Part shown: positions 4,093 to 46,754 of the stretch, piece after piece
Layout of the letters: each line of letters starts with the position of its first letter
How positions within the stretch are numbered: position 1 is the stretch's first letter
Assembly: GCA_937899415.1 (NCBI GenBank)
Contig: CALBPI010000058.1
Span: forward strand, 1 to 64,000
DNA length: 64,000 nucleotides
Direction of reading: 5' to 3'
Source of the DNA: an uncultured Gammaproteobacteria bacterium
Lineage (GTDB): Bacteria; Pseudomonadota; Gammaproteobacteria; Steroidobacterales; Woeseiaceae
Translations under genes and position numbers: made by a program
The notes under the pieces: model-generated
Told to the model about the DNA's origin: nothing
Databases searched by the model: none
Seen by the model: the letters and a program-made list of their open reading frames with translations, nothing else

Positions 4093-5142
4093 ATGAATTA
4101 TCTGATGCGCGCGTGCGCGGCGTCGTTGCTGATGTGTGCAACGGCCCAGGCAGACACGCGTCCCGATGACCATGCGCCGCTGGGCGTTATGGGTGACCAC
4201 ACCCATGCCCAGGGCGAATGGATGTTTTCCTATCGCTACATGCAAATGAACATGGCGGGCAACCGCGATGGCACCACGAGCCTCTCGCCCGAGACCATTG
4301 TGACGACCGTACCCAATCGATTCGCCAACCCCCCGTTGATGCCGCCGACATTACGTGTCGTGCCGACCGAGATGACCATGGAAATGCACATGCTGGGTGC
4401 CATGTACGCGCCCAGCGATGCAATTACGCTCATGGCCATGACCCACTACATCGCCAAGGATATGGACCATGTGACGTTTGCGGGGCCTGCGGGTGACACA
4501 CGCCTGGGGACCTTCACCACAAAAGCCAGCGGCCTTGGTGACACGAGCCTGTCAGCATTGATCCGCGTGGGCGGCGACACCCACAGTCGGGTGCACGCCA
4601 CGCTCGGCGTGTCTGCGCCAACGGGGTCCATCGATGAAACAGATGAGGTGCTGACGCCAATGAACACGCGGCCGACACTGCGCCTGCCGTATCCCATGCA
4701 ACTTGGCTCGGGTACCTGGGACCTCATCACGGGTCTGACGACAAGCAGCAGCCGCGATGGCTGGGGCTGGGGTGCGCAGTGGCGCAGTGTCATTCGCACG
4801 GGCGAGAACAGCAAGGGATACACGTTCGGCGACGAACACAGCGCGACGGGATGGCTGAGCTGGCGATTGTCGCCGGCAGTGAGCCTGTCTGGTCGCCTGG
4901 CCTACCACGACCGCGGTGATGTCGATGGCATCGACGCGCGCATCATGGCGCCCGTGCAAACGGCGGATCCCGACAACTACGGCTTGCGTCGCCTGGATGC
5001 CGCCATTGGCGCGAACTGGGTTGTCGGCGACAGCGGTCACCGGCTCGCGTTCGAAGTCGGTGTGCCCGTGTGGCAGGACCTTAACGGCCCGCAGCTCGAA
5101 ACCGACTGGACGGTCGTGCTCGGCTGGCAGTTCGCGCCCTAG
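4093..5142 (+). CDS. Outer-membrane beta-barrel protein of the MetA/phenol-degradation-like transporter family, Met-rich
   Basis: A 349-residue protein with a signal peptide (MNYLMRACAASLLMCATAQA, cleavage after about residue 20). The mature start is His/Asp-rich (DDHAPLGVMGDHTHAQGEW). Methionines cluster in the first 120 residues (MQMNMAG, MTMEMHMLGAMY, LMAMTHYIAKDMDH). The rest alternates as a beta-barrel and ends in a short aromatic strand, WQFAP. GGGAGA precedes the ATG. The family is annotated as putative transporter or MetA-pathway protein. Methionine richness and the DUF2946-like neighbour suggest copper exposure or export, which is inference. Confidence 0.7.
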   Translation: MNYLMRACAASLLMCATAQADTRPDDHAPLGVMGDHTHAQGEWMFSYRYMQMNMAGNRDGTTSLSPETIVTTVPNRFANPPLMPPTLRVVPTEMTMEMHMLGAMYAPSDAITLMAMTHYIAKDMDHVTFAGPAGDTRLGTFTTKASGLGDTSLSALIRVGGDTHSRVHATLGVSAPTGSIDETDEVLTPMNTRPTLRLPYPMQLGSGTWDLITGLTTSSSRDGWGWGAQWRSVIRTGENSKGYTFGDEHSATGWLSWRLSPAVSLSGRLAYHDRGDVDGIDARIMAPVQTADPDNYGLRRLDAAIGANWVVGDSGHRLAFEVGVPVWQDLNGPQLETDWTVVLGWQFAP

Positions 5143-5169
5143 GCGGTTGCCGTGCTGGCTGGCGGCGTC

Positions 5170-5766
5170 TCAGGCGCCGTCGGCCAGCGCCAGTGCCTCG
5201 ATGTGCACATGCACATCGTTGGCAATGGGATTGGCGGCAGTCGTCAGTCCGTAATCGGCACGGTCGAGATTCGTCTTGATCGTCACACCCATGGCCGCCC
5301 GCTTAGTTGCCGGGTCCGTGCCCGTCTTGTTGATGGTCACGAGTAGCGCGACCGACAGGGTCTTGCCGAGCATCGTGAGGTCGCCCGTTACGGTCAGCGT
5401 GCCGTCATCGTTGGCCGATACCGCCGTCGACTGAAAGGTCATCGTGGGGTGGGCGGCTGTGTTGAGCCAGAACTCGCCCTGAAGATGTCCGTCTCGAGTC
5501 TCGTCGCCGCTTTCGATGCTTGCGGTTTGAATCGTCACACTGACGCTGCTGTTCGCGACGTCATTGGCGTCGTAGTCGATCACGCCTTCGGCGTCGCGGA
5601 AGTGGCCGATGACGCGGTTGAAACCAAATCGCATGATCGAGAAGTGGATATCGGTGTGGCTCATGTCCAGCGCGTAACGCTGTGTATCGGCGTGTGCGGG
5701 CGGTGTGAACGCCGCAAGACACAGGATCAAGGTGGCGAGCCGGGCTGTTGCGTTTGTGGTCATCAT
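5170..5766 (-). CDS. YceI family periplasmic protein
   Basis: About 198 residues with a signal peptide (ATLILCLAAFTPPAHA). The YceI lipocalin-like fold is recognisable from YALDMSHTDIHFSIMRFGFN near the mature N-terminus, followed by VTIQTASIESGDETRDGHL, TMTFQSTAV and LTMLGKTLSVALLV. YceI proteins bind isoprenoid-type lipids in a barrel. A longer start at 5799 exists, but the GGGGGA ribosome-binding site and the signal peptide favour the ATG ATG pair at 5763-5766. It is divergent from the dipeptidase gene and converges with the outer-membrane protein gene. Confidence 0.88.
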   Translation of the reverse strand: MMTTNATARLATLILCLAAFTPPAHADTQRYALDMSHTDIHFSIMRFGFNRVIGHFRDAEGVIDYDANDVANSSVSVTIQTASIESGDETRDGHLQGEFWLNTAAHPTMTFQSTAVSANDDGTLTVTGDLTMLGKTLSVALLVTINKTGTDPATKRAAMGVTIKTNLDRADYGLTTAANPIANDVHVHIEALALADGA

Positions 5767-5799
5767 TGCGTCCCCCGAACAGATGAATACACCTATCAC

Positions 5800-5805
5800 T
5801 ATAAT
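5800..5805 (+). promoter_or_regulatory. Consensus -10 element (TATAAT) before the membrane dipeptidase gene
   Basis: A perfect TATAAT ends 6 bases before the ATG at 5812. No good -35 is visible 16-18 bases upstream and no Shine-Dalgarno sequence fits in between, so the transcript is probably leaderless or nearly so. The element lies in the 45-base gap between divergent genes. Confidence 0.45.
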
Positions 5806-5811
5806 GCACCT

Positions 5812-6969
5812 ATGAAAAAGCTCGCTATCGCACTGGGGGGTGTCGCGATCCGGGGTGTCCGGTTCTTCTCCCTGGCACCCGGCATCGTGGAGCGCCAGCT
5901 CAATGCGGTCACCGCAATTGAGCTGGCGGAACCGTCGACGCTAGCCGCCGAGTTGCATGCGAGCGCCACGGTCATCGACCTGCATGGCGACACGCTGCTC
6001 TGGCAGCGCTCGATACTTGAGGCGTCGGATCGCGGTCACATCGACCTGCCGCGCTTGCAGCAGGGCAATGTGGCGCTGCAGGTCCTCGCATCCGTCACAA
6101 AGTCGCCCAAAGGGCTCAACTACGACAGCAACGCGGGGGACACCGATTCGCTCGTGGCGCTCGCCATCGCACAGCGCCAGCCCGTGCGTACCTGGCGGTC
6201 GCTGTTCGAGCGTTCGATGTGGCATGCGCAACGGCTCAACGAGGCCGCTGCGCGTTCCGAGGACCTCATGACTGTGCGCAATGTTCGGGACCTCGAGGCT
6301 TTGCTCGCCGCGCGGGCGGCGGGCGAGCCTCGTGTGGGTGGCTTGCTGGCCGTGGAAGGGCTTCACAACCTCGAGGGTGAGGCGGAGAACCTGCAGCGCC
6401 TGTTTGATGTCGGCTACCGCATGGCCGGGCTCACCCATTTTTTCGACAATGCGCTCGCGGGCTCGATGCACGGTATCGACAAGGGCGGGCTGACGCCGTT
6501 TGGTCGGGACATCGTCGCGCGCATGGAGTCGCTGGGCATGATTGTTGATCTGGCGCACCTGAGTTCTGCAGCCGTAGACGAGGTGCTCGACATGGCGACC
6601 CGACCGGTCGTGGTGAGCCACGGCGGCGTGAAGGCCTTGTGCCCCAACAACCGCAATCTCACCGACGAACAGGTGCGGCGCATCGCGGGGACGGGCGGCA
6701 TCATCGGTATTGGTTACTGGCCGGGTGCCGTCTGTGGCCTCGAGCCGGCGCGCATTGCTGCGGCGATGCGTCACGTGCGCGATCTCGTCGGCATTGATCA
6801 CGTCGCCTTGGGTTCGGACTACGACGGTACGGTCGAAGTCGCCTTCGATACGAGTCGCGTTGCTGTCGTCACTCAGGCGCTTATTGACGCGGGTTTCACG
6901 GAGCCGGAAATTCGCCAGGTGCTGGGCGGCAACGCGCTGCGACTGTTCCGCGAGACGCTGCCGCGCTGA
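5812..6969 (+). CDS. Membrane dipeptidase (peptidase family M19)
   Basis: A 385-residue zinc dipeptidase of the renal dipeptidase family, which cleaves dipeptides including some with D-residues. Metal ligands are visible: HGD in VIDLHGDTLLW, the Glu in AVEGLHNLEG, a His in VVVSHGGVKALC and the Asp in LGSDYDG. The N-terminus is a membrane anchor followed by APGIVERQLNAV, a pattern common in membrane-bound bacterial members. The frame is open far upstream, but ATG 5812 fits the family and the TATAAT just before it. No linked peptide transport genes are present. Confidence 0.88.
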   Translation: MKKLAIALGGVAIRGVRFFSLAPGIVERQLNAVTAIELAEPSTLAAELHASATVIDLHGDTLLWQRSILEASDRGHIDLPRLQQGNVALQVLASVTKSPKGLNYDSNAGDTDSLVALAIAQRQPVRTWRSLFERSMWHAQRLNEAAARSEDLMTVRNVRDLEALLAARAAGEPRVGGLLAVEGLHNLEGEAENLQRLFDVGYRMAGLTHFFDNALAGSMHGIDKGGLTPFGRDIVARMESLGMIVDLAHLSSAAVDEVLDMATRPVVVSHGGVKALCPNNRNLTDEQVRRIAGTGGIIGIGYWPGAVCGLEPARIAAAMRHVRDLVGIDHVALGSDYDGTVEVAFDTSRVAVVTQALIDAGFTEPEIRQVLGGNALRLFRETLPR

Positions 6970-26530: not shown

Positions 26531-28087
26531 ATGGTGAAATCGATCGTAATCGTCGGCGGCGGCAGCGCCGGCTGGATGACTGCAGCGGCGCTGGCAGCGC
26601 GGCTGGATGGCGTCAGTATTCGGCTCATCGAGAGTTCGGAGATCCCCATTATCGGCGTCGGGGAGTCGACGATCGTACCCATGGTCGACTACATGAAGAA
26701 TTTAGGCCTCGAAGAAGCCGACTGGATGCCGCACATCAACGCGACCTACAAGAGCGCGATTCGCTTCAACAACTTCTACGAGCGCGGCCACGGTTTCTTC
26801 TACACCTTCGAGCCCATGCAGCAGGTGGAAGGTCGACCGATCAACCGATACTGGCACAACCGCTACCTGTCGGACCCGACCAGTGTTGACCGCATGTCGT
26901 TCTACGACTATTGCTTCATCACGCCCGACGTGCTGGACAGTGGCGGTACCATTCGCTCGGTCATGCCCGCGGGCCCGTCCTACCACGTTGATGCGGGCCT
27001 GCTCGGCGATTTTCTGGCGCGCTATTCCACGGAGCGCGGCGTCGAGCGCATCATCGACAACGTCACAGGGGTGGAACAGGACGAACGCGGCTGGATTACA
27101 CGTCTGCAGCGCGAAAACGGCGAGGCGCTCGAGGCGGACCTGTTCATCGACTGCACGGGCTTCCGGTCCATGTTGCTGGGCAAGACACTTGAAGAGCCAT
27201 TCGACAGCTACGCGGACTACCTGTTTAACAACACGGCCTGCGCGCTGCGTTTCCCCTACGAGGACCCCACCAACGAGATGATCTCCTACACCAATTGCAC
27301 GGCGCTGTCGTCAGGCTGGGTGTGGGAAGTGCCGTTGTTCACGCGTAAGGGCTCTGGCTACGTTTACTGCGACCGCTACCTGTCATCGGATGAGGCCGAG
27401 GCCGAATTCCGCAACTACCTGGGTGCCGATCGCGTCGACGACATCGAGGCGCGTCACATCCCGATCCGGGTCGGCAAACACACGAACGTCTGGAAGCACA
27501 ACTGCGTGGCCATTGGGCTTGCGGCCGGGTTCCTTGAGCCGCTCGAGTCGACGGGGCTGTTCGCGGTACAGCTGCAGGCGGAAACGCTCGGCAATATGCT
27601 GGCCGGCGGCCGCAACGACTACAACGTGGGCGATGTAGTCATGTACAACAACATCGTCACCGAATTCTTCGAGAATGTTCGCGACTTCCTCTGCGCGCAC
27701 TACATGCTGACGGCGCGCGAGGACACACCGTACTGGCGCGACGTCAAGTACGCCATGAAGGTCTCCGACCGCCTGGCCGAGATCCTGCGTTTTGCGCGCC
27801 TGACCTTCGTGGACGCGCCTGTCGTCAAGAGCATCTTCCGGCCGAACTTCGCGGACTACAGTTTTACGGACGGCTGGGAGGCTGTGCTCATCGGGATGAA
27901 CCACATGCCCATCAATACGGGCCAGTTCACGGGCGGCGCGGGCCCCTTCGAACCGCAGATTGTCGACAATCTGCCTGCGGCCGAAGTGTTTCAGCGTGAA
28001 ATGAACGCCTTCAAGCAGAACGAGCTCGTGAAACTGCCGTCGCATTACGACTACCTGAAAGCTAATATCCACACCGACGCCGCCTGA
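26531..28087 (+). CDS. Flavin-dependent tryptophan halogenase family protein
   Basis: 518 residues. The N-terminal FAD-binding motif is IVIVGGGSAGWMTAAALA. The lysine that activates hypohalous acid is in NATYKSAIRF (about residue 77). The halogenase signature Trp-x-Trp-x-Ile-Pro appears as SGWVWEVPLF, and GFLEPLESTGLFAVQ matches the active-site loop. These features separate it from simple monooxygenases. No flavin reductase, NRPS/PKS or TonB receptor gene is nearby, so the substrate cannot be inferred. The start is ATG 26531, with ACCAGGG upstream. A TATCAT (26483-26488) could be its -10. Confidence 0.9.
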   Translation: MVKSIVIVGGGSAGWMTAAALAARLDGVSIRLIESSEIPIIGVGESTIVPMVDYMKNLGLEEADWMPHINATYKSAIRFNNFYERGHGFFYTFEPMQQVEGRPINRYWHNRYLSDPTSVDRMSFYDYCFITPDVLDSGGTIRSVMPAGPSYHVDAGLLGDFLARYSTERGVERIIDNVTGVEQDERGWITRLQRENGEALEADLFIDCTGFRSMLLGKTLEEPFDSYADYLFNNTACALRFPYEDPTNEMISYTNCTALSSGWVWEVPLFTRKGSGYVYCDRYLSSDEAEAEFRNYLGADRVDDIEARHIPIRVGKHTNVWKHNCVAIGLAAGFLEPLESTGLFAVQLQAETLGNMLAGGRNDYNVGDVVMYNNIVTEFFENVRDFLCAHYMLTAREDTPYWRDVKYAMKVSDRLAEILRFARLTFVDAPVVKSIFRPNFADYSFTDGWEAVLIGMNHMPINTGQFTGGAGPFEPQIVDNLPAAEVFQREMNAFKQNELVKLPSHYDYLKANIHTDAA

Positions 28088-28128: not shown

Positions 28129-30015
28129 ATGAGCAACACATACAACGCCGCTGACATCGAGGTGCTCAGCGGCCTCGAGCCGGTGCGCCGACGGCCGGGC
28201 ATGTACACGGATACGGTGCGCCCCAACCACCTGGCCCACGAGGTCATCGACAACAGCGTCGACGAGGCACTGGCCGGGCACTGCAAGCGAATCGACGTCA
28301 CGGTGCATGACGATGGTTCGTTGTCCGTATCGGACGACGGCCGCGGCATGCCCGTCGATATTCACCCCAAGGAGAAGATGCCCGGGGTGGAGCTCATCCT
28401 CACGAAGCTGCACGCGGGCGGTAAATTCTCGAACAAGAACTACCAGTACTCGGGCGGCCTGCACGGCGTCGGCGTCTCCGTGGTCAATGCGCTCTCGGCG
28501 CAGCTCGAAGTCTGGATCAAGCGCGGCGGGCAGGAGTACAACATCTCGTTCCGCGGCGGGAAGCGCTCGAGCATGCTCGAGGCCGTCGGTAAAGTCGGCA
28601 AGGCCAACACGGGCACGACGCTCCGTTTCTGGCCCGATGCGCAGTATTTTGATTCCGCGAAGTTTTCCATCCCGCGCCTGCGGCACGCACTGCGCGCGAA
28701 GGCCGTGCTGTGCCCGGGCCTGGCCATCTCGCTCACGATCGAGAAGACCAAAGAGACCGAGACCTGGCTCTACGAAGGCGGCCTCGAGGAATACCTGGTT
28801 GAGGCCTGTGCAGGTGCCACGCTGTTGCCCGAGCGCCCGTTCTCGGGCGCCGTCAGTGACGAACACCATGCCGCCGACTGGGCGCTGGCCTGGCTCGCCG
28901 ACGAGTCGCCGATCGTCGGTGAAAGCTACGTCAACCTGATTCCCACGGCGCAGGGCGGAACCCACGTCAACGGTCTGCGCACGGGCCTCACCGAGGCCAT
29001 TCGCGACTTCTGCGAGTTTCGCAGCATCCTGCCGCGTGGCGTCAAACTCGCGCCCGACGACGTCTGGGACCGCGTGAGCTTCGTGCTTTCGATCAAACTC
29101 GAAGACCCGCAGTTCTCGGGGCAAACCAAGGAACGCTTGTCGACGCGCGAGGCCGCGGCCTACGTGACGGGCATCATCCGCGACGCGTTCTCGCTCTGGC
29201 TCAACCAGCACCCCGACACGGGTGAGCAGATCGCGCAGCTGGCCATCGCGCGCGCCCAGCACCGGCTGCGCGCGGCGAAAAAGGTTGTCCGCAAGAAAAT
29301 CGTCGCGGGTCCGGCGCTGCCCGGAAAGCTGGCGGACTGCTCCTGTGAAGAGCCTGAGCGCAGCGAGCTGTTTCTCGTCGAGGGTGACTCGGCGGGCGGC
29401 TCGGCCAAGCAGGCGCGCAACCGGGACACCCAGGCGATCATGCCGCTGCGCGGCAAAATTCTGAATACCTGGGAGGTCGACACGACCGAGATCCTGGGCT
29501 CGCAGGAAGTGCACGACATCTCGATCGCGCTGGGCGTTGACCCGGGTAATCCCGATCTCGATGCGCTGCGCTATCACAAGGTCTGCATTCTCGCCGACGC
29601 CGACTCGGACGGTGCGCATATTGCGACCTTGCTCTGTGCCTTGTTCCTGCGCCACTTTCGAAAGCTCGTGGAGGCCGGCCACGTCTACGTCGCGATGCCA
29701 CCGCTGTACCGCGTCGATGTAGGCAAAGACGTGCATTACGCGCTTGACGACGCGGAGCGCGACGCGATTATCGACACGCTGCCCGCGGACAAGCGGCGCA
29801 ACAAGATCACGGTGACGCGCTTCAAAGGGCTCGGTGAAATGAGCCCGCCGCAACTGCGCGAGACCACCATGAACCCCGACACGCGCCGGCTCGTGCAGCT
29901 GACGATTACGGGCGCCAACAACACCGACCAGACGCTGGACATGCTGTTGTCGAAAAAGCGCGCAGCAGATCGCCGCGCCTGGCTCGAGGCGAGCGGCAAC
30001 CTGGCAACCCTGTGA
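28129..30015 (+). CDS. parE: DNA topoisomerase IV subunit B
   Basis: The ATPase subunit of topoisomerase IV, which decatenates daughter chromosomes. The 628-residue product shows GLEPVRRRPGMYT, the GHKL ATPase sites (DNSVDEALAGH, VSDDGRGMPVD, YSGGLHGVGVSVVNALS) and the TOPRIM motifs ELFLVEGDSAGGSAKQ, MPLRGKILN and ADADSDGAHI. The length fits ParE rather than GyrB. parC follows 32 bases later. Confidence 0.97.
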   Translation: MSNTYNAADIEVLSGLEPVRRRPGMYTDTVRPNHLAHEVIDNSVDEALAGHCKRIDVTVHDDGSLSVSDDGRGMPVDIHPKEKMPGVELILTKLHAGGKFSNKNYQYSGGLHGVGVSVVNALSAQLEVWIKRGGQEYNISFRGGKRSSMLEAVGKVGKANTGTTLRFWPDAQYFDSAKFSIPRLRHALRAKAVLCPGLAISLTIEKTKETETWLYEGGLEEYLVEACAGATLLPERPFSGAVSDEHHAADWALAWLADESPIVGESYVNLIPTAQGGTHVNGLRTGLTEAIRDFCEFRSILPRGVKLAPDDVWDRVSFVLSIKLEDPQFSGQTKERLSTREAAAYVTGIIRDAFSLWLNQHPDTGEQIAQLAIARAQHRLRAAKKVVRKKIVAGPALPGKLADCSCEEPERSELFLVEGDSAGGSAKQARNRDTQAIMPLRGKILNTWEVDTTEILGSQEVHDISIALGVDPGNPDLDALRYHKVCILADADSDGAHIATLLCALFLRHFRKLVEAGHVYVAMPPLYRVDVGKDVHYALDDAERDAIIDTLPADKRRNKITVTRFKGLGEMSPPQLRETTMNPDTRRLVQLTITGANNTDQTLDMLLSKKRAADRRAWLEASGNLATL

Positions 30016-30047
30016 GTGCGGCTGACCAGGCCGTGCAGGACTGATTC

Positions 30048-32291
30048 ATGCAAAACGAGCTGAACCTCGAGGGCATCGAGAAACTCTCGCTGCGCGACTA
30101 CACCGAAAAGGCATACCTCGACTACTCGATGTACGTCATTCTCGATCGCGCGTTGCCCAACATCGGCGACGGGCTCAAGCCTGTGCAACGCCGCATCATT
30201 TATGCGATGAGCGAGTTGTCTCTGGGCGCCAACGCCAAGCCCAAGAAGTCGGCGCGCACCGTGGGTGATGTGATCGGCAAGTTTCACCCGCACGGCGACT
30301 CGGCCTGCTATGAAGCCATGGTGCTCATGGCGCAGGACTTCAGTTACCGCTATCCCGTTATCGACGGGCAGGGCAACTGGGGCTCGCCCGACGATCCCAA
30401 ATCGTTCGCGGCGATGCGCTACACCGAAGCCAAGCTGCGTCCCTATGCAGCCTCGCTGCTGTCCGAGCTCGGTCTGGGCACCGTCGACTGGCAGCCCAAC
30501 TTCGACGGGACACTCAAGGAACCGGTGGTGCTGCCCGCGCGGTTGCCGAACCTGCTGCTCAACGGCACGCAGGGGATTGCCGTCGGTATGTCGACCGACG
30601 TACCGCCGCACAACCTGCGCGAAGTGGCAGCTGCGCTCATTCACCTGCTGGACAAGCCCAAGGCTACGGTGGCCGATCTTCTGAAACACATCAGCGGTCC
30701 CGACTTTCCGACGGGTGGCGAGCTGATCTCCACTGCCAGCGAAATCCAGGCGGTCTACGAAACGGGCAACGGCACGCTGCGCGCCCGCGCCACGTGGTTG
30801 AAAGAGGGTGACGACATCGTCATTACGGAGCTGCCGTTCCAGACTTCAGGTGCCAAGGTGATCGAACAGATCGCAAGCCAGATGCGTGCGAAGAAACTAC
30901 CCATGGTCGAGCACCTGCGTGATGAGTCCGACCACGAGGCACCCGTGCGACTCGTGATCACGCCCAAGCGGCGTACCGACGTCGATACGCTGATGTCGCA
31001 CCTGTTTGCGACGACAGGCCTCGAGCGCACGTTGCGCGTCAATCTCAACGTGATTGGCCTCAAGGGCACGCCGCACGTCTTTGATTTGCGAAGCCTGCTC
31101 AAGGAGTGGCTGGCGTTCCGCAAGGCCACCGTGGTGCGACGCCTCGAGCACCGGCTCGCCAAGGTGGACGAGCGGCTGCATATCCTCGAGGGCTTGCTCG
31201 CGGCTTATCTCAATATCGATGAGGTCATCCGCATCATCCGTGAGGCCGACGATCCCAAGGCCGACCTCATAGCGGCGTTCAGACTCTCCGAGCGTCAGGC
31301 TGAGGCCATTCTCAATCTGCGCCTGCGCAACCTCGCGAAACTCGAGGAGATCAAGATCCGCGGTGAACAGGATGAGTTGGCGACCGAGAAAGCAGATATC
31401 GAAAAACTGCTGGGCAGCGATGCGCGACTCAAGACGCTCATGAAGAAAGAGATCTCGGCCGACGCCGAAGAGTACGGTGACGATCGACGCACGCGCATCA
31501 TCGAGCGCGAGCCCGGCAGGGCGCTGGACGAAACGGCGCTTGTCGCGAGTGAACCGGTGACGGTTGTGCTGTCGCAGCGGGGCTGGGCGCGCACGGCCAA
31601 GGGTCACGAGATCGATCCGCGTGCGCTCAACTACAAGTCGGGCGACGACTACCTGTCATCGGCGCGCGGAAAGAGCAATCAGACGGCGCTGTTTGTGGAC
31701 TCGACGGGCCGCGTCTACAGCCTCATAGCGCACGTGCTGCCGTCGGCGCGTGGGCAGGGCGAGCCGCTGTCGGGTCACTTCAATCCGCCCGATGGCGCGA
31801 CGTTCCGCGGTGTGATGTTCGGCGACCCCAAAGACCGCTGGGTCGTGGCGACAAGCGCGGGCTACGGGTTCGTCGTACAGGCGGAGGCGCTCGCGAGTCG
31901 CGCGAAGGCGGGCAAGGCCATGCTCACGGTGCGTGGCGACGCGCAGGTGCTTGTGCCTTCGCCGACGCAGTGGCTCGAGGGCGAACTGGTGGCGGCCGTG
32001 AGCAACATCGGCCGCCTGTTGCTGTTTGATCTTGACGATCTGCCTGAGCTCGCCCGCGGCAAGGGCAACAAGCTCATGGATATTCCCAAACGCAAGTTCG
32101 AGTCCGGCGAAGAGTGGATGGTCGCCATGGTCGCGATCCCTGCGGACGGGAGTCTCGTCGTGCACTGCGGGGATCGTCACATGACGCTGAAGCCCGCCGA
32201 TCTCGAACGCTACATCGGCACGCGGGGCAACCGCGGCCAGATGCTGTCGCGTAACTACCGAAAGGTGGATCGGCTCTCCGTCGCGGAGTAA
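30048..32291 (+). CDS. parC: DNA topoisomerase IV subunit A
   Basis: The breakage-reunion subunit. The 747-residue product shows [20 protein letters not shown], the quinolone-resistance region around [17 protein letters not shown], and the catalytic Tyr in [11 protein letters not shown]. The Ser in HGDSACYE is the wild-type residue at the main quinolone position. The C-terminal beta-pinwheel domain begins after about residue 490 and is short, as expected for ParC. Confidence 0.97.
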
Positions 32292-32300
32292 GCGCGGCCC

Positions 32301-34106
32301 TCAGGCCTGCTTTTTACGCGCCCGGTCTTCGATGTCGACGTCGAGGTCGTCGCCCAGTTCGCCACGAAGGGCTTCGGCGCTGGCATCCAGGATCGCGGAC
32401 GCGGAGCGAATGTCGAGATCGAGGTCCAGCGTTGGCATGGCCTCCGTCTCGGCAATCGTATCGTCGGGCTGACCGACGTAGCGCGCTTCGGTGGCATCGT
32501 GGAACCCGGCCGTCTCTTCGAGGGGCATTTCCACAGTGTCTTCGGACCCCTGGTATCCGTGCATCTCGATCGTGACGTCATGCTCCGGTTCGCCGCCGCT
32601 CTCGAGCGCCCGCCGTGCCGTTTCCATTTCGATCTGTTGCGTCCGCGTCAGCTCGGCCTCGTAGTCGGCTTCGAGCATCTGCTGCGTTTGATCGTCGAGG
32701 TCGGGCGCGAGCGCTTCGAACTCGTAAGAGGTCAGCGTGCCTACCTGGATGTCAGCACTGGTGGTCTTGGGAGACAGGTGCTTCACGGGTATGTCCGGTC
32801 GCTGGGTCTCCGCCGTGTGGAAGGTGAAGTCGCCTGCGCTGTCTTCGACCACCGATTCCGGCGCTTCAAACAGCTCTGAGGTCAGCGGCGGCGGCGGTGC
32901 AACGGGGGTGGGTGTCGACGGAATGGGCGCCTGCACTGCAGGCAGCCGGTGGCGCGACGGGGTCGGGTGCGGCAGTTGCTCGGTTTCCGGCAGCGCCGTG
33001 CGCGCGGCGCTAATTGGATCGACGTCGACCACGGCGCGCTTCTGCGGCTTGCGCCGCGGCCACAGCGTGAAGACGACCAGCGCGATTAGCATGCCGGCGC
33101 CCAGTCCGAGCAGACGCTCGGTCCAACTCGTCTGCGGGGCGGCTTCGATGAGGTCGGGCAATGGTGCCACCGCAGTCGCGTCAGCCGCAGCTTCGACGGG
33201 GGTCTGTTGTTTGTCAGCAAAAGGGCTGCCGGCGTCTGCACCAGAAGCGCGTCCCGCGGCGGCATCGCCGACGACATTGAGTAGACGATCGGTCTGGGAA
33301 CGCGTGGTCGTCGTCGGTTCGGTCACAGGCGTTGCGGCAACGGGCGCGGGCTCGACCACAACGGGCGCGGAGGCCTCAGGGGGTATCTCGACCGTCACGG
33401 TGCGTTCGTCCACCGGTGGTGCAACCGGTGCGATCTGCGTGGGTGTATCGGTGACGGGCAGGCGCAGGACGGCGCCCGCAATCAGGCGGTCGGGATCATT
33501 GTCGATGAACGCCTGGGGGTTCGCGGCGACGATGGCATCGACGACGGGCCAGTAGCTCTGCCCGCTGGGCGTCAGTGTGGCAGCAATGGCCGATACCGTG
33601 TCACCGGTTTGCACCTGGTAGCGACTCGCGTTTGTGAGTGCCTCAAACGGTTCCCGCCGCTCGGGCGCACGTGGCGCGGGCGCGTTACGTCGCGTTGCGC
33701 GCGTCGGTAAGACACTGGCCGGTCGTGCGGCGTCGCGTGTGGCGGGGTTGAGGAACAGTGTGTAGCTGCGTGACAACCGCGCCACACCGGGGCAGGAGAC
33801 GGTGACCGCAAGCTCGAGCATGGGCTCGGTCACGATGCGCGGCGTCGAGATCACGAGGCCGCCCGGCAGTTGCCGCTGACCCGGGGCGCGCAACGTGCTC
33901 CCCAGCGGCCCGATACGTGCCGAGACACAGCCTTCGGGTAAGGGGGTTTGCGCCTGGACCGGGATTTCGACGAGCAATCGCTCACCGAGCGCGGAGCGGA
34001 CGTTGGGTTCGCCAATCTCCAGCGCCGACGCGGACAGTGACAGACCGCCCAGGGCGACAATCACGGCGATGCGCAGTGTATTCAGGCGTTTATGCTCGCG
34101 CTTCAA
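32301..34106 (-). CDS. FimV-like LysM protein (paralogue lacking the C-terminal TPR)
   Basis: A 601-residue inner-membrane protein. A signal or anchor segment (residues 12-28) is followed by the FimV N-terminal domain, EIGEPNVRSALGERLLVEIPVQ. A LysM domain lies at about 163-220 (RYQVQTGDTVSAIAATL, IVAANPQAFIDND, IAGAVLRLP). A Pro/Thr-rich stretch leads to a membrane segment at about 331-348, followed by Arg/Lys, and an acidic cytoplasmic tail. The tail ends in Lys-Lys-Gln-Ala and lacks the TPR-like FimV C-terminus seen in the other copy at 43752. FimV proteins organise the cell pole and type IV pili. It lies 76 bases after the FimX-like gene on the same strand. Confidence 0.82.
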   Translation of the reverse strand: MKREHKRLNTLRIAVIVALGGLSLSASALEIGEPNVRSALGERLLVEIPVQAQTPLPEGCVSARIGPLGSTLRAPGQRQLPGGLVISTPRIVTEPMLELAVTVSCPGVARLSRSYTLFLNPATRDAARPASVLPTRATRRNAPAPRAPERREPFEALTNASRYQVQTGDTVSAIAATLTPSGQSYWPVVDAIVAANPQAFIDNDPDRLIAGAVLRLPVTDTPTQIAPVAPPVDERTVTVEIPPEASAPVVVEPAPVAATPVTEPTTTTRSQTDRLLNVVGDAAAGRASGADAGSPFADKQQTPVEAAADATAVAPLPDLIEAAPQTSWTERLLGLGAGMLIALVVFTLWPRRKPQKRAVVDVDPISAARTALPETEQLPHPTPSRHRLPAVQAPIPSTPTPVAPPPPLTSELFEAPESVVEDSAGDFTFHTAETQRPDIPVKHLSPKTTSADIQVGTLTSYEFEALAPDLDDQTQQMLEADYEAELTRTQQIEMETARRALESGGEPEHDVTIEMHGYQGSEDTVEMPLEETAGFHDATEARYVGQPDDTIAETEAMPTLDLDLDIRSASAILDASAEALRGELGDDLDVDIEDRARKKQA

Positions 34107-34182
34107 GCCAGGACTCCCTCTCCAGCACCGCGATCAGCAGGGAATCGCGGTTATTGGGCGCGTTTTAGCACTTCTGCGGGGG

Positions 34183-36237
34183 TCAGGCTGTGTCCTGGAG
34201 CACAACTTCGGGTTCTTGTACGTAATGCCCCTGCATGAAGCTGATGCCAAGCTGCCAGAGCGCCGCCATGGTGTTGGCGTCCTGCACCTTCTCGGCCACC
34301 GTGCGCACGCCGCGCGACCGTGCCGCTTCGACAATCTGGCCCGTGGCTGTGTGCGCGTCACTGTCCGTGGACAGGTTCGTGATCAGCGCGCCGTCGATCT
34401 TCGCAAAGTCGAGCGGAATGCCATTGACGAGCTTTACCGACTGCGGCGAGTTGCCGACGTGCTCCAGCGCAAACTGGCAACCCATGGCGCGAACGGCGGC
34501 GGCCGTCTGCATGACGGCCTTGAGGTAATTGAGCGCCACTTCCTCGGTCACCTGGAAGCAGAGTGACTTCGAACTGACGTCTGATTTCGCAACGATGGTC
34601 TTGAGCCAGGGCGCGAACGAGCGGTCGGTGACGGACTGCTCCGAGATCCGAACGAACAGCAGGTCGGGTCGCTGTTCACGACTCATGGCGATCGAGGCGC
34701 CGATAACCCAGCGGTCGAGCGCCTGCATCATGTTGTTACGACGCGCCGCCGGCAGGAACTCGCTGGGCGCTATCGTCTCACCTTGTTCGTCAACGAGCCG
34801 CATGAGAATGTCGAAGACGCCGGCCGCCTCGCCATCGAGCGCCGCAATGGGCTGCTTGAGCAGGCGGAAGCGGTTTTCCTTGAGCGCTGCCGTCAGGCGC
34901 TTGGCCCAGAGCGCGTCGTGATTGCGGATCCGCGTGTCTTCGTCACTGGTTTCTGCGATCCGCACCGAGCCGCGGCCGTCTTCGCGCGCCGCCGTGTAGG
35001 TTTTCTCCGCGGCCTCGACGAGGGCTGGTACCGAATCGATGAGCTCGCCATAAGCGGCGATGCCCACGCTGCAGGTGAGTGTGATCGTGCGGTCGCCCAC
35101 CTCAAAGTGCTGGTCGGCCACGAGTGCTGCAAACTTCTCTGCCCAGACACGCGCTTCGCTGTCGGTGGCGCGCTCCATAAGTATCGTGAATGCGGTGCCC
35201 TCGAAGCGCCCGGGAATGTCACCCTTGACCACGCAACGGCGCAGCAGCTCGGCAAACTCAGCGATCACGTCTTCGGAGTCGATGACACCGAGCTCGCGGC
35301 GGACGTCTTTGAAGTTGTCGATGCGAATCCAGGCGAGCATGCGCACGCCGGCGTCGAGATTCTCGGCAACACGCTGGCCGACAAGCTTCAGGAAATGCTT
35401 ACGGTGGTAGAGGAAGGTGCTCTGGTCCTTGGTCATCGCGTCGCGCATGAGCGACGAGACGCGCTTGTCCTCTTTTTCTTCGGGTTTGACGGCCACACGC
35501 ACTGCGGGCTCGCCGTCGTATTGGGCCGCCGTGAGCAACAATGTGAGGTCGATGTTCTGGCCGCCCACTTTGACGGCTTTGACGTCCAGCGGCTCGTCTT
35601 TCCATTTTCCGCGTGAGATCGCTTTCAGCGCGCCCTTGATGGCGCTCTGGCTGCGTGGTGCGATGGCATCCATAAGCGGCAACGCAACACAGTCGTCGTC
35701 GTCTTCGTAGCCGAACAACTCGAGCCAGGCCTTGTTGGTTTCAACAATGATGCCTTCCTGCACATGCGCGATGGCGTCGGGCACGTTGTCCATGAGCGTC
35801 GTGAACTGCTGCTGGATGGTGGCAACGTTGCTGCGGGAGCTTGCGACCTGGCTGTAGAGCGTCTGCAGGTCGAGTTCGCGTTTGAGCGTGGCGGTCAGAC
35901 GGACGGTGTTTTCGAGGGTGACGAGATCCGCGGCGCCCGCGTCGATGGCGGCGCTGACAGAAGCCTCGTCGAACGACGCACCGACGGCGACGACCGCGGC
36001 GCGGCACTCGCGTTTGCGCGCCATGGCGACGGTCTGTCCGACGTCGGGTAGCGCTTCACCGATTCGCATCACCACGAGGTCGGTGTCGGCGCTGACTTGC
36101 TTGGCAAAACTATCGCCGTCCCGCACCCACTGGCAGCGGGCTGCGAAGCCTGCACGGCGCAAGGTCTGGTTGAGTGCCTCGACGTCATCTTCGGTCTCGG
36201 TGACAACGATGACGGATGCGTTTCGCGGCTGGCTCAA
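34183..36237 (-). CDS. FimX-like protein: receiver-like, PAS, degenerate GGDEF and degenerate EAL domains
   Basis: 684 residues from a TTG start at 36237 with TTGGAG 7 bases upstream; the frame is open to 36399 and an ATG at 36270 is also possible. Order: receiver-like region (SVIVVTETEDDVEALNQ, no phospho-Asp pattern), PAS (about 150-260, NVPDAIAHVQEGIIVETNKAW), GGDEF with the active site replaced (PGRFEGTAFTIL, about 342) and EAL with FDILMRL in place of the FEALLR motif. In the EAL domain the metal Asp pair reads EHVG and the Asn of VNLS reads VRIS, so phosphodiesterase activity is unlikely. The same architecture and decay are known for FimX, a c-di-GMP receptor for type IV pili. Confidence 0.83.
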   Translation of the reverse strand: MSQPRNASVIVVTETEDDVEALNQTLRRAGFAARCQWVRDGDSFAKQVSADTDLVVMRIGEALPDVGQTVAMARKRECRAAVVAVGASFDEASVSAAIDAGAADLVTLENTVRLTATLKRELDLQTLYSQVASSRSNVATIQQQFTTLMDNVPDAIAHVQEGIIVETNKAWLELFGYEDDDDCVALPLMDAIAPRSQSAIKGALKAISRGKWKDEPLDVKAVKVGGQNIDLTLLLTAAQYDGEPAVRVAVKPEEKEDKRVSSLMRDAMTKDQSTFLYHRKHFLKLVGQRVAENLDAGVRMLAWIRIDNFKDVRRELGVIDSEDVIAEFAELLRRCVVKGDIPGRFEGTAFTILMERATDSEARVWAEKFAALVADQHFEVGDRTITLTCSVGIAAYGELIDSVPALVEAAEKTYTAAREDGRGSVRIAETSDEDTRIRNHDALWAKRLTAALKENRFRLLKQPIAALDGEAAGVFDILMRLVDEQGETIAPSEFLPAARRNNMMQALDRWVIGASIAMSREQRPDLLFVRISEQSVTDRSFAPWLKTIVAKSDVSSKSLCFQVTEEVALNYLKAVMQTAAAVRAMGCQFALEHVGNSPQSVKLVNGIPLDFAKIDGALITNLSTDSDAHTATGQIVEAARSRGVRTVAEKVQDANTMAALWQLGISFMQGHYVQEPEVVLQDTA

Positions 36238-36467
36238 GGCGACTCCAAAAGTATTCCCTCTGCGCAACATCTGGTCGTGTTGCGTCAAACCTGATGGTAG
36301 TACAGCGGCTGCGCCCGGCGCGGATCCGGACCGCAAAACCGTGACGCAGTTCGCGCCCCATTTAGCGACGACGGTCACAGATTCTTGAGAATGGGCCAAA
36401 AATCGATGACTTTCGGCCCGCGCGGCAGCGGGGTACCATGAGCCGCGTTTCGACTGAGCGATCCCTT

Positions 36468-37037
36468 ATGGCGTCCTACAACACCAACGAATTCAAAGGC
36501 GGACTCAAGATCATGCTCGACGGTGACCCCTACACCATCGTTGAGAACGAGTTCGTAAAACCTGGCAAGGGGCAGGCCTTCAATCGCGTCAAGGTCCGCA
36601 ACTTAAAGACGGGCAAAGTGCTCGACAAGACGTTCAAGTCCGGCGAGTCCGTCGAAGCGGCCGACGTGCACGAGACGGACATGCAGTTTCTCTACTCGGA
36701 CGGCGAGTTCTGGCACTTCATGATGCCCGATACGTTTGAACAGTACGCCGCACCTGAAGCGGCAGTGACCGACGCAGCACCCTGGCTCAAAGGCGAGGAC
36801 GTGTGTGCCGTGACGCTCTGGAACAACGCACCGCTGTCCGTGGCACCACCCAACTTCGTTGAATTGACGATTACGGAAACGGACCCGGGTTTGCGCGGCG
36901 ATACCGCCCAGGGCGGTGTGAAGCCGGCGAAGCTCGAGACGGGCGCCACCGTGCGCGTCCCGTTGTTCCTCGAAGAGGGTGAGGTCATCCGTGTCGACAC
37001 GCGCTCCGGTGAGTACGTGTCGCGCGTGAAAGACTGA
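36468..37037 (+). CDS. efp: Elongation factor P
   Basis: EF-P relieves ribosome stalling at polyproline. The 189-residue product starts [19 protein letters not shown] and has the modified lysine in the loop [10 protein letters not shown] (Lys34), the form lysylated by EpmA in gammaproteobacteria. The three beta-barrel domains are complete, ending [10 protein letters not shown] chose ATG 36468 over the ATG at 36438 on family length. epmA is only 0.5 kb away on the opposite strand; epmB is not in the window. Confidence 0.96.
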
Positions 37038-43651: not shown

Positions 43652-43662
43652 TATGCTATCTT
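43634..43662 (+). promoter_or_regulatory. Candidate sigma-70 promoter for fimV
   Basis: TTGGTC (43634-43639) and TATCTT (43657-43662) are separated by 17 bases in an AT-rich patch that overlaps the end of asd. The leader would be about 80 bases before the fimV ATG. The match to consensus is moderate. Confidence 0.35.
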
Positions 43663-43751
43663 CGGCCGCGGTTTGGGGCGGACACCCGCTGGCCCTGGGT
43701 GGCGGCGTGATCGAGAAACAGCCCGGCAGGCGTCCGGGCCGGAGAAAAACT

Positions 43752-46700
43752 ATGCATCGTTGGTTGGCCGCACTCGTGTTTGCGGCGTGTCTCCTTGCAG
43801 CACAGGGCGCTCAGGCGCTCGGTCTCGGCGAGATCACGACCCGCTCGGCCCTGAACGAGCCCATGGACGCGGAAATTGCGCTGCTTGGCGCAACTCCGGA
43901 TGAACTGACGACGCTGGAGGTGAGACTCGCCTCGCGCGACACGTTTGACCGCTACGGCATCGATAAACCCGCGTTTCTCAACGACTTTCGCTTCAAGCTG
44001 CGCGGCGGTGCCAACCCCGCCATCGAAATCACGTCGTCGCAGCCCGTAACCGACCCCTTTGTCACCATGCTCGTGGAGGCCGTCTGGCCCCGCGGCCGTT
44101 TGCTGCGCGAATACACGATCCTGCTCGACCCGCCGACCTACGCGGCGCCGCAGGCTCAGACAACAGCGCCGGCGCCCGTACGACGCACGCCGCCGCCCCA
44201 GCGCGAGAGCCGCTCAAGCGGCGCGGTACAGCGCTCGAGCGCTCCGCCGCCCGCGCGCCTCGAAGGCGACGAGTATCGCGTACAGCGCAATGACACCCTC
44301 TGGGAGATCGCCGAGCGCGTTCGTCCCGACGAGAGCGTCTCGATCAACCAGGTCATGCTGGCCATTTTCGAGGCCAATCCGCAGGCCTTCGACGGCAACA
44401 TCAACCGACTCAACGCGGGCGCTGTCCTGCGGCTGCCGAGCTCGGACTCGTTGTACAACGTCAACCGCTCCGCTGCGTTGCAGGAAGTGCGTCGCCAGAT
44501 GCAGGACTGGCGTGGCGACAGCAGCGGCACGCTCGTCCTGACTCCGCCCGAGGAGGGCGCGGGCGTATCGGGACCGAGCACGGCAGGCACGCGCCCCGTG
44601 ACGACGGGTACGAGTACCGCTTCGAGCGCCGAGCTTGAGCGACTGCGCCGCGAGCTCGCGGAACGCGATCGCCAGCTCCAGATTCAGAATGAGGAAATGG
44701 CCCGGCTGCAGCAGCAGCTTGCGAGCCAGGAAGCAGCCACAGCGGCCGCCGCTGAGGCCGCTGAAGAAGCCCCCGTTTCCACGCAGGACCTCTACGCAGA
44801 CGATGCGGCCGACGACGACGCGGACGCGACAGCAGCCGACGCCGGTGACGACACGACCGACGGCGCGGCCGACGGTATCTTTGCCGAATCGGGTGACGCT
44901 GCAGACACCACCACGGCAGCCGACACCACGGATGACACCGCGGACGACACCGCAGACGATGCTGCTGAGGAAGCGACCACACGCACGGCCCCCGCCGCTG
45001 TTGTGACCACGCCCGAAGAGCCCTCGCTCTTCGAGAGCCTGTTGAACAACGTCTACGCCTGGGTGATTGCCGGCGTGGCACTTCTTGGTGGTGTCGCGTT
45101 CTTTTTCGCGCGCCGTAGCGGGTCCGATGACGACCCGACGGGCACCTGGGAGGCACTGGATTCCGCCGACCTCGAAGACCTTGATGGCACGCTCGCCGCG
45201 ACCGGCCGCCTGCGCGACATTGGCTCGGCGAAGCGTGTCGACACGTCGACCACGGCCGAACAACCGGCACTCGACTCCACGGACAGTTTCGAAGCAACGG
45301 CACCGGTCGACGAGATCGAGCCGACGGCCGAAGCCGAGACGATCGGCGACGACGATGACACGAGCGCCAGCTACTCGCTGGACGATACCTTCAGTTCAGA
45401 AACGGCGATCAACCTCGACCAGTCTGATCCGCTCGCTGAAGCTGATTTCCACATGGCCTATGGTCTCTACGATCAGGCTGCCGATCTCGTGAAAGGCGCG
45501 CTGGCCGTTGATCCCTCGGACAACCGACTCAAGGCCAAGCTCGCCGAGATCTACTTTGTCTGGGGCAACCAGGACGGGTTCGTTGCGGCTGCCGAAGACC
45601 TGAAGTCAGGCGTCGACGCCAGCGACCCGGAATGGAACAAGGTCGTCATCATGGGCCAGCAGATTGCGCCCGCCCACGCGCTGTTCAGCGGCGCCGTGGC
45701 CAGCTCTGAAGGCGGCGATCTCGATCTGTCACTCGACGAAACGCGCGCCACGCCCGCTTCGATCGACGCCGAAATTGGTGGCGACGATGACGGCTTCGGC
45801 GAGGTCTTTGACACCGCGAGTGCGGATTCGGACGACGATGGCACCGTTGAACAAGTGGCGGCGGACATCAGCGGCATCGACTTTGAGTTTGATGAGTCGA
45901 TGGTGTCTGACGAGGACAAGGCGGCTGCGGGCGACACGAGTGCGTCAGGCGTCGACTTTGAATTCGACGGTGACGCGCTGGAAGACGGCACGATCGAACA
46001 GCCTGTGGATCTTGGCGATCTCGGCGGTGTCGACGAGGGCTCGGCAACGGCCGAGATCGACATCTCCGACCTCGACCTCGATACCGGTGACCTCGAGTCG
46101 TCGCTGGGCGATGCCGCTGACGACATCTCGGGCGACCTGCTTGAAGCGACGGGCGTGACTTCCGTACTGCCGGATGACTTCAAAGTGAGCCTGCCCGACG
46201 CGCCGGCTGACGATGAGGAAACGGTACTGGCGGACACGAGCGCCTTCTCGGATGCGACGCTGGAGATGCCGTCGGACGGCGCCAATGACGCAACCAGCGA
46301 AATGCCGGCCATCGATGCCACGAGCGAGATGCCGTCCTTCGACGAAACGGATGCGGGTGACGCCACGGCGATCCGCCCCGCGGGCGCGATCGGCGACGTC
46401 GACCTTGACGTGGCCGACCTCACCACGGAACTGGCCGTCGATGATCTCGGCGACGCTGATGCAACGCGTGAGCAGCCGCAGGTCGATGCCGGCTCGACGC
46501 TGTTTTCCGAAGAAGTGTTCGCGGGCGACGAGAGTGTTGATCCCGAGGCGGACACGGGCCTGAACCTGGCCATCGATGGCGAGGACACGGGTAACACCAA
46601 TGTGGCCGAAGTGGGCACCAAACTCGACCTGGCCCGCGCCTACGTCGACATGGGTGACCCCGATGGCGCACGCAGCATCCTCGAAGAGGTGCTGCAGGAA

Positions 46701-46754
46701 GGTGACGACGAGCAGAAGGGCGAAGCCCAGAAGCTGCTCGACAGCCTCGGCTGA
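43752..46754 (+). CDS. fimV: FimV, polar landmark / type IV pilus assembly protein
   Basis: 1000 residues from ATG 43752 (GGAGAA upstream). Signal peptide (WLAALVFAACLLAAQGAQA), FimV N-terminal domain (LGEITTRSALNEPMDAEIALLG), LysM at about 173-222 (YRVQRNDTLWEIAERV), coiled coil at about 293-340 (LERLRRELAERDRQLQIQNE), membrane segment at about 436-457, then a very acidic cytoplasmic region with repeated motifs, and a TPR-like end (953-1000, TKLDLARAYVDMGDPDGARS). FimV binds peptidoglycan through LysM and organises the pole for pili and chemotaxis. The place between asd and truA is classic. Many Asp/Glu residues and SEMP-type repeats make the middle low in complexity. Confidence 0.95.
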   Translation: MHRWLAALVFAACLLAAQGAQALGLGEITTRSALNEPMDAEIALLGATPDELTTLEVRLASRDTFDRYGIDKPAFLNDFRFKLRGGANPAIEITSSQPVTDPFVTMLVEAVWPRGRLLREYTILLDPPTYAAPQAQTTAPAPVRRTPPPQRESRSSGAVQRSSAPPPARLEGDEYRVQRNDTLWEIAERVRPDESVSINQVMLAIFEANPQAFDGNINRLNAGAVLRLPSSDSLYNVNRSAALQEVRRQMQDWRGDSSGTLVLTPPEEGAGVSGPSTAGTRPVTTGTSTASSAELERLRRELAERDRQLQIQNEEMARLQQQLASQEAATAAAAEAAEEAPVSTQDLYADDAADDDADATAADAGDDTTDGAADGIFAESGDAADTTTAADTTDDTADDTADDAAEEATTRTAPAAVVTTPEEPSLFESLLNNVYAWVIAGVALLGGVAFFFARRSGSDDDPTGTWEALDSADLEDLDGTLAATGRLRDIGSAKRVDTSTTAEQPALDSTDSFEATAPVDEIEPTAEAETIGDDDDTSASYSLDDTFSSETAINLDQSDPLAEADFHMAYGLYDQAADLVKGALAVDPSDNRLKAKLAEIYFVWGNQDGFVAAAEDLKSGVDASDPEWNKVVIMGQQIAPAHALFSGAVASSEGGDLDLSLDETRATPASIDAEIGGDDDGFGEVFDTASADSDDDGTVEQVAADISGIDFEFDESMVSDEDKAAAGDTSASGVDFEFDGDALEDGTIEQPVDLGDLGGVDEGSATAEIDISDLDLDTGDLESSLGDAADDISGDLLEATGVTSVLPDDFKVSLPDAPADDEETVLADTSAFSDATLEMPSDGANDATSEMPAIDATSEMPSFDETDAGDATAIRPAGAIGDVDLDVADLTTELAVDDLGDADATREQPQVDAGSTLFSEEVFAGDESVDPEADTGLNLAIDGEDTGNTNVAEVGTKLDLARAYVDMGDPDGARSILEEVLQEGDDEQKGEAQKLLDSLG

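Follow-up and report, generated by a model that had tools for sequence, protein, structure and literature searches.

A second FimV-like gene beside fimX in Woeseiaceae and related families, a candidate membrane anchor in type IV pilus control

Why should a gene for a FimX-like protein be followed, on the same strand and after 76 bp, by a gene for a second and shorter FimV? The question is raised by a stretch of 64,000 nucleotides from an uncultured marine gammaproteobacterium, related to Woeseia, of the family Woeseiaceae, order Steroidobacterales (contig CALBPI010000058.1 of assembly GCA_937899415.1; hereafter the window), in which a fimX orthologue and a gene that we call fimV2 lie side by side. 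We propose, with a probability of roughly 0.55, that the two form a control unit of the type IV pilus, in which FimV2, attached to the wall, anchors the FimX-PilZ-PilB module at the membrane. The pair is kept together in several families, and both genes are missing or broken in one genome (G254) without matches to PilB and PilM. The new points are this shared loss and a short helix conserved in the cytoplasmic tail of FimV2.

The two proteins

A preliminary description, made from the letters of the window, had reported two co-directed genes 76 bases apart next to topoisomerase IV, and this layout stands: the open reading frames (ORFs) occupy 34183-36399 and 32301-34106 of the minus strand, with the gap at 34107-34182, and converge with parE and parC. 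The first ORF was delimited mechanically; TTG 36237 is very likely the start of fimX, because GGAG precedes it and the alignments of relatives begin there. The start of fimV2 is TTG 34106, also with GGAG upstream. No terminator-like site was found on the minus strand between the two genes, and the GC and third-position GC contents of the pair resemble those of six neighbouring genes. The pair had also been placed away from the main fimV, which was mistaken, since the latter lies about 7.4 kb from fimX in the same conserved neighbourhood, adjoining truA- and accD-like genes.

The identity of the upstream gene as FimX is supported by its sequence. The PAS, GGDEF and EAL domains pass the Pfam cut-offs (PAS_8 30 bits, GGDEF 69 bits, EAL 167 bits), as had been described, while the receiver is sub-threshold (Response_reg 14.3 bits against 30.2). 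At E <= 0.01, EAL, GGDEF and PAS_9 are found in all 12 aligned members and the receiver in one. The closest solved structure by sequence is 4j40, a FimX GGDEF-EAL module (E 1.4e-50); PA0861, itself no FimX, follows closely at E 8.4e-48. The model of the window protein is weak (4 rows, mean predicted local distance difference test score, pLDDT, of 58.5) and was used for the EAL fold only; Foldseek ranked PA0861 and other GGDEF-EAL proteins at the top, FimX EAL structures appearing from rank 19. Orthology is also supported by place: of the 17 loci of the class with a fimX call, 14 have efp, epmA or psd on the upstream side and 12 have parC on the downstream side. The order efp/psd-fimX-parC is common to other gammaproteobacterial families.

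The motifs FEGTAF, FDILMRL and EHVG are present as first described, and the GGDEF and EAL sites are degenerate (EGTAF, DILMR), with Asp for the Glu of EAL and EH at the equivalents of S595-Q596 (P. aeruginosa FimX numbering). To say that all catalytic motifs have decayed was nevertheless too strong, as the equivalents of R479, K616 and Q671 are kept. Among the positions that contact cyclic dimeric guanosine monophosphate (c-di-GMP), R479, D507, Q565 and K616 have their equivalents, and F652 is changed to K, E654 to Q and Y673 to H. We compared 73 distinct rows, left after removing 13 duplicates from 86: 53 from the order and named relatives and 20 from elsewhere in the class. R479, D507 and K616 are kept in 53/53 order rows, Glu475 is replaced by Asp in 52/53 and Phe652 by Arg in 49/53 (the window has Lys). 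In the 20 rows from elsewhere in the class, position 652 is Phe or Tyr in 13. In P. aeruginosa, Phe652 is reported to stack on guanine, with Arg479 and Asp507 listed among the contacts (PMC3527489; here and below, papers given by PMC number are cited from excerpts of their text). Because the equivalents of R479, D507 and K616 are kept and Glu475 and Phe652 are replaced, c-di-GMP binding by the window FimX is possible, with a pocket that would be altered relative to that of P. aeruginosa. Residues W445, M487, M488 and A493 of X. citri FimX have been named as PilZ contacts (PMC11656802); by eye on the sequence alignment with the solved relative, the Trp seems to be kept and the Met pair not.

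The second gene had been described as coding for a FimV-like LysM membrane protein without tetratricopeptide repeats (TPR). FimV_N (PF25800, 33.9 bits against a cut-off of 27), the predicted transmembrane helix and the lack of TPR agree with this, LysM falling below its threshold (13.8 against 20.9 bits), as does the FimV core TIGR03505 (33 against 43.45 bits). No TPR family was found by the Pfam search in the window FimV2 at E <= 1, nor in the 11 aligned members at E <= 0.01, a level at which FimV_N appears in 11/11 and LysM in 4/11. The main FimV of the window does have TPR matches. An AlphaFold model (4 rows, mean pLDDT 49.6) predicts an Ig-like sandwich at residues 28-121, a LysM-like unit (strand-helix-helix-strand, 162-215), one transmembrane helix (328-351) and an acidic tail (21% D/E, 8% K/R by composition) mostly modelled with low confidence, except for a well-modelled helix at 472-502 and weaker C-terminal helices. 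A fold search returned Ig-like matches, all weaker than E 0.001.

When a tree is built from the periplasmic part, the 20 main FimVs cluster together with support (98/99), FimV2 staying outside this cluster, and a weak branch (55/0; 61% of bootstrap trees) has the 31 FimV2 rows on one side. On this sequence comparison we consider FimV2 a separate FimV paralogue, for which the tree would permit a single origin without showing it. The repeat T.EMP occurs three times in the main FimV of the window and once in FimV2, and is present in several family members too.

The tails of FimV2 diverge apart from one short helix, which is also where the tail is modelled best. The pattern [ILMV]L[EQSA].[DAE][YF] is found there in 39 of 47 FimV2 tails (1000 shuffles gave a mean of 0.86 and a maximum of 4), spanning seven families (handles f1, f2, f5, f6, f7, f15 and f16, f1 being the window's family); of 20 main FimVs, one has it. 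Eight of 55 FimV2 loci had been excluded from this count, two truncated and six being class paralogues not beside fimX; the main FimV set is made of the 19 ORFs obtained from 20 fetched loci (L180 gave none) plus that of the window. Four class loci away from fimX (L146, L147, L149 and L151) code for second FimV-like proteins that share a C-terminal stretch of the type D-x-G-x-R-x-G-F, unlike the ends of both FimV2 and the main FimV.

FimV2 might be a spare or decaying copy of FimV without a set function. It evolves fast (the window protein is 25-32% identical to ten relatives), its LysM is weak and some genomes lack it, all of which would fit such a copy. Most members have an uninterrupted reading frame (among the matches listed), though, and two invariant cysteines and residues of the LysM region are kept in the 11 aligned members; together with a tail motif present in seven families, this makes decay a very improbable account.

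Distribution of the pair and of the pilus genes

We have searched 127 genomes of the order, calling FimX at E <= 1e-120 and counting as a pair a FimV2 on the same strand and at most 800 bp downstream. We omitted the weakest FimV2 matches and any second fragment of a gene, and the pair and FimV2 counts of this section, absences included, are among the matches listed. FimX was found in 92 genomes, and in 41 of them, the window's included, FimV2 follows it. The pair is present in 17/17 FimX genomes of the window's family, 5/5 of f2, 2/3 of f5, 1/1 of f7, 2/3 of f14 and 14/17 of f15; in the third f5 genome fimX is at a contig edge, and in the third f14 genome FimV2 is found at 1.4 kb. Families f3, f4, f6, f8, f9, f10 and f11 (1, 3, 7, 2, 4, 17 and 7 FimX genomes) have no pair, and in the neighbourhoods drawn for at least one genome of each there was no FimV2 beside fimX. 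Conservation of the pair across relatives, the check proposed in the preliminary description, thus holds in part: it exceeds chance and is confined to some families of the order. In 69 of the 92 genomes the main FimV is encoded divergently, at most 20 kb from fimX.

Outside the order the pair was not found again. Of 143 class genomes, 54 score at E <= 1e-85 against the FimX profile, in some cases plainly through other GGDEF-EAL proteins, and inspection by eye of the matches listed showed no adjacent FimX-FimV pair besides that of the window. Seventeen of 20 fetched class loci gave a fimX call (L098, L099 and L100 did not, nor did the order locus L079), and none of the 17 has a FimV-like gene adjoining. 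FimV2 looks like an addition to an older fimX locus, confined to part of the order. A pair ancestral to the whole class is unsupported, the class sample and the 17 loci being without a second one.

The genome of the window codes for PilB (858 bits, cut-off 675.65), GspE, an MshE-like ATPase, PilT-family ATPases and PilM. It has one PilZ-domain protein, the gene of which adjoins what we take to be holB; the protein ends in THTM, reminiscent of the C-terminal PilZ motif in X. citri. There, PilZ is reported to need a C-terminal motif ending in Met117 to bind PilB (PMC8389850).

By hand count, strong PilM matches (E <= 1e-30) occur in 88/92 genomes with FimX against 16/35 without. One of the latter is G254, of the window's family (2.5 Mb, 97% complete), which has no match to PilM or FimX and a PilB below the cut-off (best 501 bits), and retains smaller ATPase matches of PilT size. 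All that remains between its efp and parC is a remnant of fimV2 for the end of the cytoplasmic tail, which aligns with positions 518-708 out of 716 in the FimV2 profile. Roughly the initial 70% of fimV2 is absent, as is fimX. The main fimV is retained, with 658 residues (910-1186 elsewhere). Four genomes of genus g5 also have no PilB above the cut-off and no FimX or FimV2 matches. Over the 35 genomes without FimX, and leaving the G254 remnant aside, the best listed match to the FimV2 profile has E 4e-25, a level that main FimVs also reach.

These results bear on another explanation, that FimV2 serves the core pilus machine or a different polar system (flagellum, chemotaxis, general wall anchoring) instead of FimX, and owes its place only to one insertion in a stable locus. 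The efp/psd-fimX-parC neighbourhood is found without FimV2 in other orders, and FimX and PilB persist with no FimV2 beside fimX in three f15 genomes. FimV/HubP roles are described as varied and species-specific, the FimV of P. putida being dispensable for pilus motility (PMC12918733). Harder to accommodate are the lack of any match of FimV2 strength in the genomes without FimX and the state of G254, where the main fimV has outlasted fimX and most of fimV2. We regard this explanation as possible, without favouring it.

A proposed role for FimV2

In the two-gene control unit that we propose, the Ig-like and LysM-like domains of FimV2 would keep it at the pole or septum, and its tail helix would bind FimX, perhaps at the GGDEF or receiver domain, with the GGDEF domains of DgcP and PdeB as precedents; which part of FimX is contacted is a guess by analogy. 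FimV2 would thereby concentrate FimX-PilZ-PilB at the pilus base and relieve the main FimV, with its TPR hub, of this job. It may add to, and not replace, the routes through PilB and the pilus machine and through Pil-Chp, because FimX is reported to use those in P. aeruginosa and Acinetobacter. More tentatively, and with some doubt on our part, the tail helix, lying in a tail that is otherwise probably disordered for the most part, may be a dedicated FimX docking peptide that creates a TPR-independent, wall-attached recruitment site for FimX-PilZ-PilB, so that in some of the order the hub would be split into a general and a pilus-only FimV. The pair supplies a directly testable candidate FimX anchor, a membrane-bound and probably wall-bound FimV paralogue, and the short conserved helix is a ready peptide for binding assays.

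Several observations weigh against this proposal. Adjacency could be the inheritance of one insertion in a slow-rearranging locus, where efp, psd and parC stay put, and the loss in G254 looks like one deletion and not two events, in a reduced genome. Sixteen genomes without a FimX match have strong PilM. In f16, FimV2 is 1.2-5.6 kb from fimX in 4/5 genomes (among the matches listed), with other genes intervening. An additional FimV-like match is located on a separate contig in one f6 genome (G243) and in both f8 genomes. In three of the 17 f15 FimX genomes parC comes directly after fimX, with PilB (827-834 bits) and PilM kept, and therefore FimX does not need FimV2 everywhere. The tail pattern is missing from 8 of the 47 tails, including all three of f14, and was fitted post hoc on the same, related and non-independent sequences. 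FimV2 also lacks the C-terminal FimV portion from which the DgcP-binding fragment came. As for other species, in P. aeruginosa, with no FimV2, FimX relies on PilB and the pilus machinery for its polar placement (PMC5595344), and importance has been reported for its receiver domain (PMC11656802).

The locus and its known counterparts

The features of the locus are collected in Table 1.

Table 1. Features in and around the fimX-fimV2 pair (positions in the window)
Feature	Position	Strand	Remarks
fimX orthologue	34183..36237	-	684 aa, (degenerate REC)-PAS-GGDEF-EAL; mechanical ORF from 36399
Degenerate GGDEF site FEGTAF of fimX	35188..35205	-	
Degenerate EAL site FDILMRL of fimX	34795..34815	-	Asp for EAL Glu; retains the Arg corresponding to P. 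aeruginosa R479
Loop-7 AEKVQ of fimX	34282..34296	-	Lys at position of P. aeruginosa guanine-stacking Phe652; Arg in 49/53 order rows
Gap, fimX stop to fimV2 start	34107..34182	-	76 bp
fimV2, FimV-like paralogue	32301..34106	-	601 aa: N-terminal hydrophobic stretch, FimV_N, LysM-like, one predicted transmembrane helix, acidic tail, no TPR
FimV_N Ig-like periplasmic domain of FimV2	33744..34025	-	aa 28-121
LysM-like domain of FimV2	33456..33629	-	aa 160-217, under Pfam cut-off
Transmembrane helix of FimV2 (predicted)	33054..33125	-	aa 328-351
Conserved tail helix of FimV2	32601..32693	-	aa 472-502; motif MLEADYEAELTRTQ at aa 477-490
parE and parC	28129..32291	+	convergent with the fimX-fimV2 pair
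efp	36438..37037	+	upstream of the pair, divergent
Main fimV	43653..46754	+	1033 aa, FimV_N and C-terminal TPR; divergent, ~7.4 kb from fimX

The lineage of the window is a deep branch, with identities to the relative genome G006 of 71% for parC and 38% for fimX. Fast evolution peculiar to the pair in the window was considered and rejected: its parC, parE and psd are distant from the family members too. Upstream of parE there is a gene of the tryptophan-halogenase family (26531-28087; PF04820, E 4.2e-120).

The slot between fimX and parC may have received membrane signalling partners repeatedly. In the class locus L092 fimX is followed by a membrane adenylate/guanylate cyclase (4576-6198; Guanylate_cyc and HAMP, tested against Pfam in this locus only) and, in the same interval, by a neighbour of 361 residues without a Pfam match; L090, L093, L095 and L105, of other class families, have genes resembling this cyclase in size and transmembrane pattern. 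In an f16 locus (L082:5337-7313, genome G193), the genes between fimX and fimV2 include one for a mannosyltransferase-like membrane protein (PMT_2). PA4958, which we take to be a neighbour of fimX in P. aeruginosa, was considered as a counterpart and not used.

In the excerpts of open-access literature consulted we recognised no description of a FimV paralogue adjacent to fimX, which is weak evidence of absence. The window FimX shares with those of P. aeruginosa and X. citri the PAS-GGDEF-EAL order and the degenerate sites. It differs from both in the FimV-like gene that follows and in a receiver hardly recognisable by Pfam, and from that of P. aeruginosa in having Asp at Glu475 and Lys (Arg in most order rows) at Phe652. 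In Acinetobacter, FimX is said to act through Pil-Chp (PMC12533971).

FimV2 resembles the FimV/HubP polar landmark proteins in its Ig-like FimV_N domain, LysM-like domain, single predicted transmembrane helix and acidic cytoplasmic tail, and is unlike them in the missing C-terminal TPR (FimV) domain, the shorter tail and the tail motif. Proper polar placement of P. putida FimV is reported to require its LysM and Ig-like parts (PMC12918733). The nearest parallels to the proposed anchoring are DgcP with FimV and PdeB with HubP, in which the cytoplasmic part of the hub brings a GGDEF protein to the pole. The GGDEF domain of DgcP suffices to bind the cytoplasmic region of P. aeruginosa FimV, as was first traced with a 36-residue fragment from the C-terminal portion of that FimV, and the GGDEF domain of PdeB binds HubP (PMC7033161). 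In those systems the partners are an active enzyme and the main hub, whereas here they would be a degenerate receptor and an adjacent, TPR-less second FimV.

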